DNA of 64,000 bases, from the NCBI RefSeq assembly GCF_009811555.1, contig NZ_BLIN01000003.1, forward strand, positions 806,001 through 870,000. Reading direction: 5' to 3'. This document shows positions 7,244-45,663 of this stretch, one piece after another (the stretch's first letter is position 1; every line of letters starts with the position of its first letter). A program made the position numbers and the translations under genes. The notes under the pieces are model-generated. The model did no database searches and was not told the DNA's origin. It saw nothing but the letters and a program-made list of their open reading frames with translations. The DNA comes from Streptomyces caniferus (GTDB lineage: Bacteria; Actinomycetota; Actinomycetes; Streptomycetales; Streptomycetaceae).

Positions 7244-7627
7244 TCAGCAGTTCACGTCGAGGACGTGGATCCCGGACACCAGAGTGCCTTCGAGCTTGAA
7301 GCAGCGGTTCTTGTCGGCCTCGTTGATGTACAGGGGCTTGGAGCCGCCCGTCCAGTACACGGTGACCGTGGCCCCGGTCGCTTCGGCGGGGAAGAACCCC
7401 TTCCAGCTGGTCCCGATCGGCCGGTCGTGCTGGCAGTAGTTCTTGCTTTCTATGCCCGCCGGGCCCTTCCACTCGTAGCAGGTGTCGATGAGCGACCCCG
7501 CGTTGTGCTCGAAGGAGATGTAGTTGTCCGCGGCAGCGGCGGCGGACGGCGCCGTCAGTACCGCGCCGGCCAGGGCCAGGCCCAGGGCGGCGGCACCGCA
7601 GGCCGACGAACGCTTCGTGTGTCGCAT
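7244..7627 (-). CDS. Small secreted four-cysteine protein (paralogue 1)
   Basis: A 127-residue exported protein. The ATG at 7627 gives MRHTKRSSACGAAALGLALAGA and an Ala-rich cleavage region APSAAAAA; an ATG at 7663 would add 12 residues. The mature part is about 95 residues with four cysteines in the pattern DTCYEW ... YCQHD ... CFKLEG ... DVNC at the very C-terminus, probably two disulfides. The same layout occurs in the neighbours 7667-8053 and 8885-9265, so these are paralogues from duplication. I know no function for the family. It is the last gene of the secreted-protein group. Confidence 0.8.
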   Translation of the reverse strand: MRHTKRSSACGAAALGLALAGAVLTAPSAAAAADNYISFEHNAGSLIDTCYEWKGPAGIESKNYCQHDRPIGTSWKGFFPAEATGATVTVYWTGGSKPLYINEADKNRCFKLEGTLVSGIHVLDVNC

Positions 7628-38893: not shown

Positions 38894-39568
38894 TCAGATG
38901 GCCATGGCCTCCTGGATCCACCGGTTCACCCGGTACGGCAGCCACCACAGCAGCGGCCCGGTGCGGGAGATCAGGCGCTCCTCCAGGAAGTCGGCGGCGA
39001 CGGCCTCGGGCACGGCCGACAGCGGTGCGCCGTACGACAGTTGGCTGATCGCCTTCCGGTAGTCGGGCTCGTCCGCGGTGAAGCGGCGCAGGTGGCCCCA
39101 TCGGCGGTCGCGGATCTGGACGAAGCCGGGACCCTCGCGCCACAGGCATTTGCAGAGGTAGTGCTCGTTGCGCCACTGGGAAAGGGCAGCCGCCTCGTCG
39201 ACGGGGCCGGTGAGGGTCCGGGGCGGCTGGAGGTGGCTGAGCTCGCGCCAGCCGTCGCCGGGCTCCGCGGGCAGGCGCAGCCGCCACTGGACCAGCACGG
39301 CGCGTGCCGTCAGATCACGGATCAGGCACAGCCGCCGGACCGCGTGCGCGGCGGCTTCGGGGTCGGCGACGTCCGTCAGGTCGATCTCCTCGGCGATCCG
39401 GACGCGCCGCACCCCCAGCTCCCACAGCCGGGCGGCGTACTCCTCCGGGGGTCCGGTCAGGTCGAGTTCGCCCAGGCTCATGCCGGGCAGGGTGCAGGCG
39501 TCCTCGTCGTAGTCCCGCCATGCGGCGAGCATCAGCGCCCGGGGGGCGGGGGTGGTGGTGCGGGTCAT
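38894..39568 (-). CDS. DUF5825 family protein (RiPP cluster)
   Basis: A 224-residue protein matching DUF5825, a family that accompanies RiPP-maturation radical SAM C-methyltransferases in streptomycetes. Hallmarks: LMLAAWRDYDEDACTLPGMSLGELDL at the start (in parts), LWELGVRRVRIAEEIDLTD, LVQWRLRL and YLCKCLWREGPGFVQIRDRR. It starts 28 bases after the methyltransferase stop with GAGGAG upstream. No enzymatic motif; a partner or binding role for the methyltransferase is a guess. Confidence 0.85.
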   Translation of the reverse strand: MTRTTTPAPRALMLAAWRDYDEDACTLPGMSLGELDLTGPPEEYAARLWELGVRRVRIAEEIDLTDVADPEAAAHAVRRLCLIRDLTARAVLVQWRLRLPAEPGDGWRELSHLQPPRTLTGPVDEAAALSQWRNEHYLCKCLWREGPGFVQIRDRRWGHLRRFTADEPDYRKAISQLSYGAPLSAVPEAVAADFLEERLISRTGPLLWWLPYRVNRWIQEAMAI

Positions 39569-39596
39569 GGGTGTCTCCTCGTGGGCCGGGCGGCGC

Positions 39597-41525
39597 TCAG
39601 GCGTGGACGACGTCGCGGGGTGCCTGCGGCGTCTCCTGCGGGGCGGGGGCGGCGTGACGGTGGCGCATGAAGTCGAGCCGCAGCAGGTCCTCGTTGACGG
39701 CCGCCGGGGCGAGGTGGACGTACTGGCCGCCGTCGGTGAAGACCAGCCCGAGCGTCACCCAGTGCTGGAGGAGGGCGTGCACCTCGGCCTCGTCGACCGG
39801 ATGCTCCGGCAGGCGCGCGGCGAGCTTGCGGGTCAGCGCGGCAGGGGCGTGCGGCTGGTCGAGGAGCCGGAAGGCCGCGGTCTCCAGGGGCGTGGTGAGC
39901 TCCATGGCGCCCCAGTCGAAGGCGTGCCGGCGGCTGACGCACACGATGCGGTCGCCGAGGTCGGCGTGGGTGAGCCTGCTGTCCGTGTGGTGTTTGCGCC
40001 AGGCGGCGAGGGCGTCGTTGAGGGAGGTGACGGTGGGTTCGCCGATGCCGCGTTCGGGTGCCTCGAAGACGTAGGCCAGCTCGTACAGTTCGGACTCGGG
40101 CAGGTCGTAGGTGAAGCGGTAGTGCTCCTCGGGCCGCAGACCGGTGAAGCCGAGTTCGGGCCGGTTGAAGTACGGGCTGAAGCGTTCGATGGCGATACGG
40201 GCGGAGAGGTCGACCGGCGGGTCGAGGTGTTCCAGGGCGGGCAACTGGGCGATGACCGGCTCGTAGTCGGCGGCGGTCTCGCCGGGGAAGCCGTGGAGGT
40301 AGTTCCAGGAGACGGAGAGTCCGGTCTCGGCTCCGTCGCGGAGCATACGCACGTTCTGGCAGCCGCTCACGCCCTTGTCCATCAGGTCGAGCACCCGGCT
40401 GTTCAGGCTCTCGATGCCCGGCTGGACGTAGATCATCCCCGCGTCGGCGAGGGTGCGCAGCTGGGCGCGGCGCATATTCGCCTTGATCTCGATGTGCAGG
40501 CGCAGGTCGTAGCCGCTCTCGATGATGCGGGGCAGGACGGTGTTGAGGTAGCCCATGTCGAGGATGTTGTCGACGACGTACATGTCCAGCACCCGATGGC
40601 GGCGCGCCAGGTCCATGATCTCTTCGTAGAAGACGTCGGGGCTCTTGCTGCGGAACTGCATGAAGGAGCCGTTGAGGCCGCAGAAGGTGCAGTGGTGCTT
40701 CTCCCCCCACCAGCAGCCGCGGGCGCCCTCGACGACGAGCTTGGGCTCCACCCAGTTGCGGGCGACGGAGGACGCCAGCCGCTCGAAGTAGCCGCTGTAG
40801 TCGGGCGGCAGGATGGTGGCGGGAGGCAGCGGGCTGGTGCTCATCGGGTTGGCGGTGCTGGTGCCGTCGGGGGTGCGGTGGCACAGCCCGGGGACGGCGG
40901 ACAGGTCGCCGCCCTCGTCGAGGGCGGTGAGCAGCTGGGGAAAGGCGGCTTCGCCCTCGCCGCGGACCACGAAGTCGAGGAAGGGGAAGTTGCGGTGGCC
41001 CGCCGCGCCCTGTTCGGCATCGCAGTTGGCGCCGCCCATGACGGTCTTGATGTGCGGGGCGAGGCGTTTGACGTACTTGGCGGCGGCGAGCGCGGCGGTG
41101 TTCTGCTGGAAGGTGGAGGTGAAGCCGACGACGTCGGGGCCGGCCGCGACGATCCGCTCGGCGGTCTCCCGGACGAACTCCGGTACCACGCGGTGCAGTT
41201 CCTCGGACATCCGGATGCGTTCGTCCCGCAGCTTGCCGCGCATCGAGGCGCGGAACTCCGGCACCCGCCACTCGGGCTCGTCGTAGAGGGCGGAGGAGAA
41301 GACCCAGTCGCCGCATCCCATGAAGTACGAGGAGAGCGCATAGAACTGGTAGTCGTCCGCGGTGAACTCGGTGCGCCGGGTGATCCAGTCGGTGAATTCC
41401 AGGTTGGCGTGCAGGACATCGGCATGGCCGGAGGTGCGCTCGTCGACACTGCGTCGCAGGATTCCGAGGGCGAGGGACGGGAGGTCGATCGGGGACCAGG
41501 GCATGTTGACCAGCAGGACGCGCAT
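39597..41525 (-). CDS. RiPP maturation radical SAM C-methyltransferase (B12-binding)
   Basis: A 642-residue radical SAM enzyme. Residues 1-200 form a cobalamin-binding-like domain (MRVLLVNMPW, DVVGFTSTFQQN, VMGGANCDAEQG, VVRGEGEAAFPQL). The radical SAM domain has an unusual C-x7-C-x2-C motif, Cys 271, 279 and 282 in GCWWGEKHHCTFCGLN, known from the TIGR03975-type RiPP enzymes. The C-terminal 100 residues (ETAAFRLLDQPHAPAAL ... EVHALLQHWVTLGLV) look like a PqqD/winged-helix precursor-recognition domain. The predicted reaction is methylation of unactivated carbon in the precursor. ATG 41525 follows GAGGAG. Confidence 0.92.
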   Translation of the reverse strand: MRVLLVNMPWSPIDLPSLALGILRRSVDERTSGHADVLHANLEFTDWITRRTEFTADDYQFYALSSYFMGCGDWVFSSALYDEPEWRVPEFRASMRGKLRDERIRMSEELHRVVPEFVRETAERIVAAGPDVVGFTSTFQQNTAALAAAKYVKRLAPHIKTVMGGANCDAEQGAAGHRNFPFLDFVVRGEGEAAFPQLLTALDEGGDLSAVPGLCHRTPDGTSTANPMSTSPLPPATILPPDYSGYFERLASSVARNWVEPKLVVEGARGCWWGEKHHCTFCGLNGSFMQFRSKSPDVFYEEIMDLARRHRVLDMYVVDNILDMGYLNTVLPRIIESGYDLRLHIEIKANMRRAQLRTLADAGMIYVQPGIESLNSRVLDLMDKGVSGCQNVRMLRDGAETGLSVSWNYLHGFPGETAADYEPVIAQLPALEHLDPPVDLSARIAIERFSPYFNRPELGFTGLRPEEHYRFTYDLPESELYELAYVFEAPERGIGEPTVTSLNDALAAWRKHHTDSRLTHADLGDRIVCVSRRHAFDWGAMELTTPLETAAFRLLDQPHAPAALTRKLAARLPEHPVDEAEVHALLQHWVTLGLVFTDGGQYVHLAPAAVNEDLLRLDFMRHRHAAPAPQETPQAPRDVVHA

Positions 41526-41594
41526 GTCGGCTCCTCGTAGGCGGCGGGGTGGGAGGGGAGGCGGCCGGCGGCCGGCCGGTGACGTGCGGAGGGT

Positions 41595-41627
41595 CCGGCC
41601 GGCCCGGTGGTGCACCGGGCCGGCCGG
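41595..41627 (-). terminator. Hairpin between precursor and methyltransferase genes
   Basis: A perfect 15-bp stem (CCGGCCGGCCCGGTG at 41595-41609 with its complement at 41613-41627), seven bases after the precursor stop. Inside an operon it should act as a partial terminator or mRNA 3' stabiliser that raises precursor over enzyme expression. Confidence 0.8.
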
Positions 41628-41633
41628 GGAGGG

Positions 41634-41753
41634 TCAGTCCTCCTCGGTGTCCTCGGCGTTGCGGAACGGCACGGTCACCGTGATGCCGATGCCCGGCTTG
41701 CGGTTCTCCTCGTCACCCGCGAGCGGGTCGTTGTGGATGATGTCCTTCTGCAT
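41634..41753 (-). CDS. RiPP precursor peptide (39 residues)
   Basis: A short gene between the S9 peptidase and the radical SAM gene, on the same strand, with AGGAGA seven bases before its ATG. The product starts MQKDIIHNDPLAGDEE, an acidic leader-like part, and then has RKPGIGITVTVPFRN, a stretch of beta-branched and small residues, before an acidic tail (NAEDTEED). There is no Cys and no Ser; the Ile/Thr/Val block is the likely target for C-methylation. Evidence is position, ribosome site and composition; leader and core limits are unknown. Confidence 0.82.
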   Translation of the reverse strand: MQKDIIHNDPLAGDEENRKPGIGITVTVPFRNAEDTEED

Positions 41754-41793
41754 GGCTGTGTCTCCTGTTCTGCCGGTGTTTCGGGAACGGATC

Positions 41794-43644
41794 TCACATT
41801 CCGGGGGGCGCCGGACGGGCCGGTGCTCCCCAGGACCCCGTCCGCCGGGGGACGGGGGGTTCGGTGGGCCGCGGAGTGCGGCGCAGGTGCCGGCCGAGGA
41901 AGCCCATGGCGCGCTGCAGGGCCGCCACGTGGTGAGTGCCGGTGTAACCGTCGTGGCCGGTGTCCAGCCACAGGGACTCGTGCGCGACGCCGGCCTCCCG
42001 CAGGGCGGCCAAGTAGCTGCGGACCTGGCCGGGCGGGCATTTGACGTCGCGGGTGGCGGCGATCACCAGCAGCGGGGCGCGGACATCGGCCGCGTAGTGG
42101 AGCGGCGAGCTGCGCGCGTAGCGTCCGGGCACGGCGTCGGGGGTGCCGCCGAACAGCCGCTCGTCCAGGGCCCTCAGCGCGGGGGTGCCGGTACGGTGCG
42201 CGGCGGCGCAGTCGGCGACCGGTTTGACGGCGACGCCGGCCTGCCAGAGGTCCGGCCGGGTGCCGAGGGCGAGCAGGGCCAGGTAGCCGCCCCAGGAGGT
42301 GCCCCACAGGCCGATCGCATCCTCGCGGGCCAGACCGCGGCGGAGCAGGTCGGTCCGGACCGCGACGAGGTCGGCGACCTGGGTGAGCCCGACGCCCTCG
42401 CCGTAGGCGGCGCGCCAGCCGGGGCCGTAGCCGGTGGAGCCGCGGTAGTTGACCCGGGCGACCGCGAACCCGGAGGCGACCAGGGAGTGCACCTGCGGGT
42501 CGTAGGCGTCGCGGTCGTGGTCGGCGGGGCCGCCGTGCACCAGGAACACCAGCGGCGGCGGCCCGTCCGGGGCCGTGTCCGGTTCGCTGAGCAGGGTGTG
42601 CACGGGCCCGTCCGGGCCGGGGGTCCACAGGTCGCGGTGCCGGCCGGGTGCGGGGGCGGGCAGGACGGGGAGGGCCGGCAGCCGGGTGCCGGCGGTGGAG
42701 CGCATGCGCGGCGGGGTGGCCGTGTCGGTCCAGAGGTAGTGCACGTCGTCGCCGGGGTGCGGGGCGGCGTCGAGCAGGGTGCCGGGCGGGCAGGGCACCG
42801 GGGTCAGGGTGCGCCGGTCGAGGTCGGCCGTGGTGAGGGCGGAGCGGCCGTGGCGGTCCTGGCGGATGAGGACCCGTCGCCCTTCGGGGTACCAGCGCGC
42901 GGTGATCTCGGTGTCGAAGCGGCACCAGTTCAGCGGACGCAGTCCGGTGCCGGGCCGCCAACTGGCCAGTCGGTAGCGGTCGTCGTCCTCCTGGACCAGC
43001 AGCAGTTCGCTGGCCGACAGGGACGGCGCGAAGCCGAGCGCCCACAGCCGGCCGCTCCGCCCCGAGAGCCGGTCGAGAACCTCCCCCGAGCAGGTCACGA
43101 GGGTGACCGCACGGTCGGATCCAGCCGCCCCCGACAGCGCCAGCAGCCCGCCCGACGGCGAGATCCCGGTCAGCAGCGCGGGGCCGTCGACGGTGCGCAC
43201 CTGCCGGGCCGGTCCGCCCGGTGTGCCGAGGTGGACGGTCATCGAGCGGCCCTCCCCGAGGCCGAGGGCCACGGTGCCGGCGTCGCTGACGGCGAGACCG
43301 CACGGGAGGCCGGGGCGCAGGCCGGTCAGACCGGGGTGCCGCGGTCCGCCCCCGAAGTCCTGGAAGTACCAGAGCCCGAGGCCGCTACGGTCCTCGTCGA
43401 ACCACCACACCCGGGCGTCCGCGTCGAGCGCGCAGTGCACCGTGCCGTCCGGGCTGTCGGTGACCTGACGGGCGGTGCCGGTGGCGGCGTTCCAGGTGAA
43501 GATCTCGCAGCGGCCGTCGGCGTCCGCGGCCAGCGCCATGCGCGCCGGGTCGCGCGGGCAGACCTCGGGCAGCGCGGGCCGGTAGACCCGGAAGCCGGTG
43601 CCGGGGGGCGGCGGTGCGGCGGTGCCTGCCGCGGTCGCGCTCAT
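41794..43644 (-). CDS. S9 family peptidase (prolyl oligopeptidase type), RiPP cluster
   Basis: A 616-residue serine peptidase. The N-terminal half is a beta-propeller-like region (DSPDGTVHCALDADARVWWF and similar repeats); the C-terminal alpha/beta-hydrolase domain has the oxyanion-side VFLVHGGPADHD, the nucleophile GTSWGGY, Asp in AATRDVKCPP and His in DTGHDGYTGTHH. No signal peptide is seen, so it acts in the cytoplasm, probably removing leader or tail from the modified peptide. It overlaps the MFS gene by ATGA and the precursor gene follows after 40 bases. Confidence 0.9.
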   Translation of the reverse strand: MSATAAGTAAPPPPGTGFRVYRPALPEVCPRDPARMALAADADGRCEIFTWNAATGTARQVTDSPDGTVHCALDADARVWWFDEDRSGLGLWYFQDFGGGPRHPGLTGLRPGLPCGLAVSDAGTVALGLGEGRSMTVHLGTPGGPARQVRTVDGPALLTGISPSGGLLALSGAAGSDRAVTLVTCSGEVLDRLSGRSGRLWALGFAPSLSASELLLVQEDDDRYRLASWRPGTGLRPLNWCRFDTEITARWYPEGRRVLIRQDRHGRSALTTADLDRRTLTPVPCPPGTLLDAAPHPGDDVHYLWTDTATPPRMRSTAGTRLPALPVLPAPAPGRHRDLWTPGPDGPVHTLLSEPDTAPDGPPPLVFLVHGGPADHDRDAYDPQVHSLVASGFAVARVNYRGSTGYGPGWRAAYGEGVGLTQVADLVAVRTDLLRRGLAREDAIGLWGTSWGGYLALLALGTRPDLWQAGVAVKPVADCAAAHRTGTPALRALDERLFGGTPDAVPGRYARSSPLHYAADVRAPLLVIAATRDVKCPPGQVRSYLAALREAGVAHESLWLDTGHDGYTGTHHVAALQRAMGFLGRHLRRTPRPTEPPVPRRTGSWGAPARPAPPGM

Positions 43645-44912
43645 CCGGTCTCCTCCTCGGTGCCGCGGGTGCGGCGCGGTGCCACACAGGTCACGTACAG
43701 CGCGAGCACGGCCAGCAGCACCGCGCAGCCCGCGAAGGTCGCCCCGGCTCCGGCCCGGTCGGCGAACAGCCCGGCGAGGGCCGGGGACAGGGCCGCCGCC
43801 GCGCCCGACGCGGTGGCCAGGACGGTGCCGGTACGGGCCTGCAGCGCGGGTGGGGTGAGCTGGATGATCCGGGCCTGCAGCGCCACGGTGGCCGAGGGCG
43901 TCAGGAAGCAGAGGAGCCCGAAGAGCAGCCCGAACTGCCAGGCGTCGCGGGCCACCGCCAGGGCCACGGCGGGCGGCACCAGCAGCCAGGACACCGGCAC
44001 CAGCACGCTCGCCGCGGCGTGCCGACGGGCCAGTCGGGGCGCGGCCAGCGCTCCCGCCAGCCCGGCCGCCCCGGCCAGCGCGAGGACCAGGCCCAGGGGA
44101 GCCGCGCTCCGGCCGTGGTCCTGGAGCGCGAAGACCGTCGTGTAATACAGCGCGACGAGCAGGGCGTTGACGGCCGAGATCCAGACGAGGGCCAGCCGCA
44201 GGAAGGGTTCCCGGCGGAGCAGCGTCACGCCTGCCCCGGCTTCGGCGAACAGGGCCCGCCAGGCCCGCCGCGGTGTGCCGGCCGGCGGCCGCTGCTCCGG
44301 CCGCGGAGCCAGATCGGAGCGCATGGCCCGGACGCCGCCCGCCGCGACGGCGTACGACAGGGCGTCCACGAGGAACGGCAGCCAGGCGCCGACGGCGAAG
44401 AGCAGCCCGCCCAGCGCGGGCCCGACGACCAGGGCGCCCCGCTCCCCCGCCTGTAATCGGGACAGCACCCGCCGGTGCTCCTCCGGGGGACACACGAACG
44501 CCAGGGTGCCCAGCGACGCCGCTTCGTAGCAGGCGCTCGCGCACCGCTCGACGAGTACGGCGGCGAGGAGCACGGCCAACGGCACCGGACCCGCCGCGAC
44601 GGCCACGGTGACCCCGGTCATGGCCCCGGCGGACACCACCGCGGCGCCCACCATCACCTGCTTGCGGGCCCCACGGTCGGCGGGCACCGCGGCGAGCGGG
44701 CCGAGGACCAGCGTGGCGGCCGCGGAGAGCCCGGCGACGGCCCCGACCTCGGCCGGGGAACGGCCGAGGCTCAAGAGCAACAGCGGCAGCACGAATCCGG
44801 CGGTCTGGCTGCCGAGCGCGTCACAGGTGCCCGCCCACCAGAACAGCCGGACGTCGCGGCGGGCGTACGGCAGGGGGGCGGCGGATGCCGCGGCCGGGGC
44901 GGAGTGCGTCAT
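43641..44912 (-). CDS. MFS transporter, RiPP cluster exporter
   Basis: A 423-residue major facilitator with about 12 hydrophobic segments, opening RLFWWAGTCDALGSQTAGFVLPLLLLSLG and with LAAVPADRGARKQVMVGAA as the motif A loop, close to the MFS_3 (enterobactin exporter-like) branch. As first gene of the cluster operon it most likely exports the finished peptide and gives self-protection. The ATG at 44912 has no good ribosome site; the true start may differ or the message may be leaderless. Confidence 0.87.
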   Translation of the reverse strand: MTHSAPAAASAAPLPYARRDVRLFWWAGTCDALGSQTAGFVLPLLLLSLGRSPAEVGAVAGLSAAATLVLGPLAAVPADRGARKQVMVGAAVVSAGAMTGVTVAVAAGPVPLAVLLAAVLVERCASACYEAASLGTLAFVCPPEEHRRVLSRLQAGERGALVVGPALGGLLFAVGAWLPFLVDALSYAVAAGGVRAMRSDLAPRPEQRPPAGTPRRAWRALFAEAGAGVTLLRREPFLRLALVWISAVNALLVALYYTTVFALQDHGRSAAPLGLVLALAGAAGLAGALAAPRLARRHAAASVLVPVSWLLVPPAVALAVARDAWQFGLLFGLLCFLTPSATVALQARIIQLTPPALQARTGTVLATASGAAAALSPALAGLFADRAGAGATFAGCAVLLAVLALYVTCVAPRRTRGTEEETG

Positions 44913-45663
44913 CAGGGACGACCCGCGACCGGTCTCGCGGTGGAGCGGGTGGCACCACCGGACGGGTCGCCTGCCGGGTCGTTCACGGGGAGGGTCACCG
45001 GACGGGTGACCGGGAGGTTCGTCAGACGTCTGGCCGGACGGTCCTGCGATGTCCCCGTCCCCTGGGATAACTCCGACGGTAAGTCGTGCGGTAAGCCCTG
45101 CGATAAGCCCTCGGTGCGCGGGGTCGCTGATCGCCGTTCCATGCGAAGCCACCTCAACGTCGTGGGCAGATCGTGAAGATCGCCACACCAATAGGTCAAC
45201 TTGCGGAGGAAATGTGCCAGAAGCGTGCTGGAGCTTAACCAGCCAGTGACACAGGCCACAAGATGTCGGGCGGTGAACAACTTCGACCGCATTCACACGC
45301 CCGGTTTCCTCCCTCATGAACGAGATGACCGGGTATCGCGGCCCGGTCCCGCACTGTCCACTACGGCCCACCGCCGCTCATCGAACGCACCCGACCACAC
45401 GACGCGCACGCGCCCGGCTGTACGGGTGACTTCCGCCGGCATTCCTTGCGCGAGGGTCACCCGGGTGGGTTACTGGCCGTACCTACCAGGTGGGCCGCCC
45501 ATCCCTCCGCTGGGAGATGCGGCGGTCGGCTCATCGGTGTGTCCATCGGTGTGTTGCTTCGGCTTCCACAGGCATGGCGTCGCCCGACGGAGGGGTTCTA
45601 CCAGTCGGCACCCTCAGGGGTGTTGGCCGGCGGAGACGGCTCAACCACGTCCGAGGAGGCGTA
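44913..45663. other. Divergent intergenic region upstream of the RiPP operon
   Basis: About 750 bases without a supported gene. The 45066-45113 repeats lie 154-201 bases before the MFS start. A GTCACC-GGACG-GGTGAC inverted repeat sits near 44994-45010. Open frames here have poor codon character. The far end carries the promoter of the 45664 gene. Confidence 0.5.
45066..45113. repeat. Four 12-bp direct repeats (GATAAG/GGTAAG) upstream of the RiPP operon
   Basis: GATAAC at 45066, GGTAAG at 45078, GGTAAG at 45090 and GATAAG at 45102, at an exact 12-bp period, separated by CCG/TGC-rich hexamers. AT-richer than the surroundings. A candidate iterated regulator site. Confidence 0.6.

Follow-up and report, generated by a model that had tools for sequence, protein, structure and literature searches.

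The minus strand of the analysed window, a 64,000-nucleotide stretch of the Streptomyces caniferus contig NZ_BLIN01000003.1 (positions 806,001–870,000), carries a five-gene operon of the clavusporin type. It encodes, in this order, a major facilitator superfamily (MFS) transporter, an S9 peptidase, a 39-residue precursor peptide, a B12-dependent radical SAM enzyme and a DUF5825 protein. With a probability of about 0.85, the operon would give rise to a ribosomally synthesized and post-translationally modified peptide (RiPP), namely a C-methylated hydrophobic peptide whose leader is cut by the S9 peptidase and which is exported by the MFS protein, with DUF5825 aiding recognition. Operons of this kind are already known, and the window adds a sequenced member. 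A previous interpretation made from the letters alone (the sequence-only reading) had placed these five genes on a single strand, and their positions are confirmed by the open reading frame (ORF) coordinates and by Pfam and NCBIfam matches.

The radical SAM gene (39597–41525) encodes a member of the RiPP C-methyltransferase family, with 611 bits against TIGR03975 in the NCBIfam search (cut-off 282) and the Pfam domains PF02310 at residues 119–198 and PF04055 at 269–425. Its cluster motif, C271-x7-C279-x2-C282, and the B12-type N-terminus are as previously described; the three cysteines are invariant and PF02310 is present in 33/33 aligned TIGR03975 members. The DUF5825 gene (38894–39568; PF19142, 259 bits) starts 28 nt after the radical SAM gene and is the one match to this family in the whole source genome. 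The MFS gene (43641–44912; PF07690, 101 bits in Pfam), a presumed exporter, overlaps by 4 bases the gene of a prolyl-oligopeptidase-type S9 peptidase (41794–43644; PF00326, 118 bits), the presumed leader peptidase. The precursor, MQKDIIHNDPLAGDEENRKPGIGITVTVPFRNAEDTEED, is encoded at 41634–41753 and contains neither Cys nor Ser, as had been noted; its predicted core GIGITVTV (residues 21–28, 41670–41693) is flanked by Pro20 and Pro29, the putative cleavage points. An AGGAG/GAGGAG-like site precedes the start of each of the S9, precursor, radical SAM and DUF5825 genes.

According to the abstract of the paper in which they were described, clavusporins are reportedly hydrophobic ribosomal peptides with several C-methylations, which reduce surface tension and support the development of Streptomyces. 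They are said to be made by DUF5825 together with a B12 radical SAM enzyme, both being required, and the operon is said to be widespread in actinomycetes. A homologous B12 radical SAM/DUF5825 pair was characterised in clavusporin biosynthesis, where it C-methylates amino acids (excerpt of PMC12257519), and the enzyme removing the clavusporin leader is the prolyl oligopeptidase MpcP (excerpt of PMC12951456), of which the S9 peptidase of the window would be the counterpart. On these two excerpts, the earlier opinion that the peptide product of such a gene set was undescribed is not borne out, and the operon as an undescribed set standing alone was rejected. In addition to the enzyme pair and the leader peptidase, the likeness extends to a syntenic operon on the plasmid pSCL4 (NZ_CP016560.1, locus L111) of S. 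clavuligerus, presumably the clavusporin producer, judging by the name. This operon is annotated as MFS, alpha/beta hydrolase, radical SAM and DUF5825, with the precursor unannotated in the PLSDB gene table, which is incomplete. Among PLSDB plasmids, the radical SAM gene was found in 16 S. clavuligerus records (83.2% identical to that of the window) and the DUF5825 gene in 16. Identity between the window and S. clavuligerus amounts to 83% for the radical SAM enzyme, 59% for DUF5825, 66% for the peptidase and 54% for the MFS protein. The S. clavuligerus precursor MQKDVIHNDPLAGDEENRKPSVGITITVPFRNAEDADED (L111:6812) overlaps the end of the annotated peptidase gene (6812 versus 6852), and 33/39 residues of this ORF are identical to those of the window precursor. 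The two cores differ (GIGITVTV in the window and SVGITITV in S. clavuligerus), and the window has an extra TTA-bearing leader ORF ahead of the MFS gene.

Other known systems are more distant. Biphenomycin-like clusters with YHxYxY precursors likewise carry the B12 radical SAM/DUF5825 pair, but combine it with an MNIO and with precursors of aromatic type (excerpt of PMC12257519), whereas Pfam detected no MNIO in any of the five genes of this operon. The TIGR03975 enzymes of Nif11-type and other RiPP clusters (Sinorhizobium meliloti, Rhizobium leguminosarum, Niallia, Methylomagnum) belong to the same family with 30–34% identity. Their clusters have other precursor types, and no DUF5825 is listed in the annotated neighbourhood, for which the gene table is incomplete.

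Conservation was followed in related loci, taken as the best 80 of 525 radical SAM relatives (71–92% identity of the radical SAM enzyme, all Streptomyces), in which precursor homologues were sought by iterated profile. A homologue was found in 77/80 loci, on the same strand and starting 183–443 nt before the radical SAM match, and the short ORF as a product of chance was thus rejected; in the remaining three loci, the sequence breaks off at a contig edge (L029, L052) or is interrupted by 10 Ns between the peptidase and radical SAM genes (L008). The sequence-only reading had named missing conservation of the short ORF beside homologous methyltransferase genes as one outcome that would refute it, and the reverse was observed. 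The precursor matched nothing in Pfam or NCBIfam, and its codon-position entropy (mean 0.39, 0.26 and 0.48) is only mildly informative, since almost every third position is G or C. The four large genes were detected together in 73/80 loci, and the gene order of the window is kept in 73/73. Individually, DUF5825 was present in 79 loci, S9 in 78 and MFS in 74; both S9 misses and the single DUF5825 miss fall at contig edges. Since loci L023 and L038 have no MFS match although the upstream DNA is covered, the exporter gene is the operon member that varies most in its presence. A comparison of 17 flanking or overlapping ORFs with relatives left flanking genes as extra cluster members unsupported: two of these ORFs match outside the window's own genome, each of them overlapping either the operon or the leader ORF.

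Residues were counted in 79 peptides (63 distinct) from the related loci, the window and S. clavuligerus, omitting L036, which has Ns inside the peptide. Residues 2–4 are [QE]KD in all of them (78 QKD, 1 EKD), and [DN]PL invariably sits three residues on from His/Asn. Core positions were numbered from the residue after KP, the initial count taking in 74/79 peptides. Ile or Val occupies positions 2, 4 and 6 in 79/79 peptides and position 8 in 72/79 (otherwise Leu in 5, Phe in 1 and Arg in 1). The odd positions vary, with G/S/T/K at 1, G/S/M at 3, T/V/S/K at 5 and T/Y/K/S/R at 7, and Lys, Ser, Tyr, Arg or Val can take the place of Thr in the core. As judged from this alignment, beta-branched aliphatic residues are required at alternate core positions, and Thr is not. 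The alternation of Ile/Val with variable odd positions predicts that the core forms an amphipathic strand, which would be methylated on its Ile/Val side. The proposed methylation of the whole Ile/Thr/Val block is hereby narrowed: the Ile/Val part at positions 2, 4 and 6 is fixed, whereas the Thr part is exchangeable. The 30 distinct cores among the 79 peptides represent a large natural library for predicting methylation sites.

In the pathway suggested by these data, the precursor leader (QKDIIHNDPL...) would be bound jointly by DUF5825 and the B12 radical SAM enzyme, and the enzyme would place methyl groups of methylcobalamin on unactivated carbons in the side chains of the core GIGITVTV, the likeliest sites being Ile/Val at positions 2, 4, 6 and 8. 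The S9 peptidase would then cut after Pro20 and perhaps also after Pro29, and the MFS protein would export a short, very hydrophobic peptide which, by analogy with clavusporins, may lower surface tension and help aerial growth. The earlier proposal of C-methylation followed by proteolysis is retained as the likeliest reading of these genes, with the RiPP nature of the operon, the identity of the precursor and the MFS export; what falls away is the novelty of the product.

Several points weigh against this pathway. The chemistry is not something that sequence alone can reveal, and the product type is assigned by orthology with S. clavuligerus and by what is reported of clavusporins. Moreover, the 79 peptides come from close relatives and do not represent independent events. 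Pro stands ahead of the core in 76/79 peptides and after it in 72/79. The first Pro is missing in both precursor copies of L020 and in L040, and the second in the second copy of L020, in L075 and in L077–L081; since these exceptions keep the peptidase gene, cleavage strictly after Pro fails to explain every member. Finally, PbsB, a B12 radical SAM enzyme of another family, forms a biaryl crosslink instead of methylating (excerpt of PMC12257519). The same precedent would favour a crosslink, epimerisation or rearrangement performed by the pair on this peptide, instead of or besides C-methylation, and TIGR03975 is a subfamily-level model for which a single function of all members is not assured. 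Nevertheless, such a reaction is very improbable: no aromatic pair that could be crosslinked is present in the core, a homologous enzyme pair is stated to C-methylate (excerpt of PMC12257519), and fixed Ile/Val at alternate positions suits methylation of tertiary carbons.

A different doubt concerns the job of the peptide, which might be C-methylated and yet serve antagonism or signalling instead of surface activity and aerial growth. The variation of the cores among strains would agree with such a role, as would the operon of L020, which holds two precursors with different cores. However, this seems unlikely, considering that the clavusporin abstract reportedly assigns surfactant and developmental activity to the same operon type and that the alternation of hydrophobic and polar residues suits an amphipathic strand. 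In addition, early TTA codons in the leading ORF (23/77 loci) fit the developmental control which the UUA tRNA is said to exert. Two observations on the unusual cores can be added. The tandem precursors of L020 lie at 7599 and 7785, and their cores are GVSVKVTI and GVSVSVSR, neither preceded by Pro. The loci L075 and L077–L081 form a sub-group with the core GVGVV[VI]Y[LF], no second Pro and radical SAM enzymes about 71–72% identical to that of the window.

The part played by DUF5825 was approached by comparing its alignment with that of the radical SAM enzyme, whereby DUF5825 was found to repeat motifs of the C-terminal half. Profile comparison (55 versus 33 sequences) gave a probability of 96.7 and P 4.7e-10 over 180 colinear columns, covering approximately residues 353–621 of the radical SAM enzyme. 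Two parts match on their own: residues 340–440, the end of the barrel with RD...W...HLxPP (P 4.8e-7), and residues 500–642 (P 2e-7). In the controls, radical SAM residues 1–260 gave P 0.076, residues 116–340 P 0.0094 and the reversed profile P 0.25; the best of 60 column shuffles reached P 0.018 with a score of 26.1 versus 79.9 for the real profile. Residues 1–40 of DUF5825 showed no match to the radical SAM profile (P 0.026). The match persists when the radical SAM side consists of four proteins from other phyla or classes (Sinorhizobium, Rhizobium, Niallia, Methylomagnum; P 3.9e-7), and the Pfam DUF5825 model reached 1/33 radical SAM members (E 0.013). TokK and other solved B12 radical SAM enzymes share the core made up of the B12 and radical SAM domains, with 7kdx_A matching residues 119–426 (E 2.9e-15), but this match ends before the C-terminal part that DUF5825 resembles. 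By these profiles, DUF5825 and the C-terminal half of its partner enzyme are remote homologues, and DUF5825 lacks the B12 and iron-sulfur parts. The previously known co-occurrence of the two holds, DUF5825 adjoining the radical SAM gene in 79/80 loci; the sequence-only reading had treated DUF5825 as a bystander, against which stand its reported requirement beside the clavusporin enzyme and its remote relationship to half of the enzyme.

DUF5825 was detected above the cut-off in 65/297 genomes of the family, 86/391 of the order and 4/396 of the phylum set, all four of the latter belonging to the genus of the window, whereas the radical SAM family is far wider. Two candidates outside the members of the order, G536 and G895, were rejected, scoring 21 bits (below the cut-off) and lying in unrelated reading frames. 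From the homology together with this narrow range, DUF5825 is read as a late, degenerate duplicate of the C-terminal half. We consider it probable, albeit less so than the pathway itself, that it is a pseudo-enzyme half: the 3' half of a TIGR03975 gene would have been duplicated, and the copy would have retained the final barrel units and a winged-helix-like domain at the C-terminus but lost the B12 and [4Fe-4S] parts. Such a shortened, catalytically empty duplicate, now paired with its parent enzyme, would probably add a substrate-recognition surface, a subunit letting one radical SAM fold methylate many unrelated short peptides.

Against this half-enzyme interpretation, larger alignments (259 and 115 rows) gave P 2.9e-9 with a residue-level alignment of low confidence, the usable one coming from the smaller pair of alignments. 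A direct hidden Markov model search reached a best whole-protein E of 7e-10 (L137), but the individual stretches scored weakly and one did not follow the order of the others. A PDB search with DUF5825 produced no convincing structure, the only match being 1zyl_A with E 0.012, taken as chance. No RiPP recognition element (RRE) or PqqD match was found in DUF5825 itself; weak winged-helix matches below the cut-off occur in the homologous radical SAM region of some members, such as TrmB at 550–606 of L131. Poor structural matches, the uncertain residue alignment and weak single-domain scores are also what would be seen if the likeness were convergent, that is, a generic winged-helix domain combined with a chance match and not a duplicate. 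We regard this explanation as doubtful, since the match comprises two distinct blocks in the correct order and the first of them (RD-x5-V-x-W...HLxPP), significant alone, is barrel sequence and not a winged helix. Moreover, the N-terminal half and the reversed and shuffled profiles fail to match, and the similarity persists with radical SAM proteins from other phyla and classes. Should DUF5825 indeed be half of its partner in degenerate form, this domain of unknown function would gain an origin as well as a job that can be tested, and why these B12 radical SAM enzymes need a second protein could be asked directly at the level of structure. In that case, the streptomycetes would have built a set of peptide families, with at least five precursor types beside DUF5825/radical SAM pairs, on a duplicated half.

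These further types were grouped by eye in 37 more distant loci with a radical SAM match, and they are ready targets for further methylated peptides. The second type, MKRRS[IV]QNDPIS...GAV[IV]V..FALDITKAAPV..., is located upstream of the radical SAM match in 9/37 distant loci (L132, L133 and L135–L141), with an S9 peptidase match in eight of the nine (not L133). Peptides of the third type have 26–33 residues, e.g., MEKTVVTSDPQSDERESVKVEVGITVKF, and end in the core itself with alternating Val/Ile and no follower sequence; they were found at L128:3857, L129:3782 and L130:1752 and 1972 (coordinates on the radical SAM strand). The fourth type, M[EV]..IKK[VI][VA]VR[ED]...EKRP[TS][RS], has no beta-branched run in its C-terminal part (L112, L113, L115, L117, L119, L122 and L123), and the fifth, MKKRT[IV]Q...GRW[LM]V..., occurs in L131 and L134. 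No precursor could be named in 15/37 distant loci.

Two elements of the operon were absent from the sequence-only reading. The 108-nt spacer after the precursor folds with −56.3 kcal/mol (z −3.7) and includes a 15-bp hairpin (41595–41627, minus strand) beginning 6 nt past the precursor stop. Stems of at least 11 bp, with one mismatch allowed, occur within 60 nt of the stop in 73/79 precursors versus 72/1580 mononucleotide shuffles; the best stem is below 11 bp in the six others (L013, L053, L077–L080). The base composition of the stem shifts between strains with the pairing kept (S. clavuligerus, L040, L056). The hairpin, which lacks a T-run, might act by partial termination or by 3'-end protection, raising the precursor over the enzyme.

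The second element is a 76-codon leader ORF (MERRSATPRTEGLSQGLPHDLPSEL...) at 44912–45142 on the minus strand, whose stop overlaps the MFS start and which carries four TTA codons, at 13, 17, 21 and 25. No TTA codons were found in the matched stretches of 80 radical SAM and 79 DUF5825 genes. TTA within the first 35 codons of the leading ORF occurs in 23/77 loci versus 1/77 on the antisense control, and control of the operon by the UUA tRNA may be its function. The TTA-rich leader is conserved in the nearest relatives, and in L005–L007 the same leader is in frame with the MFS gene.

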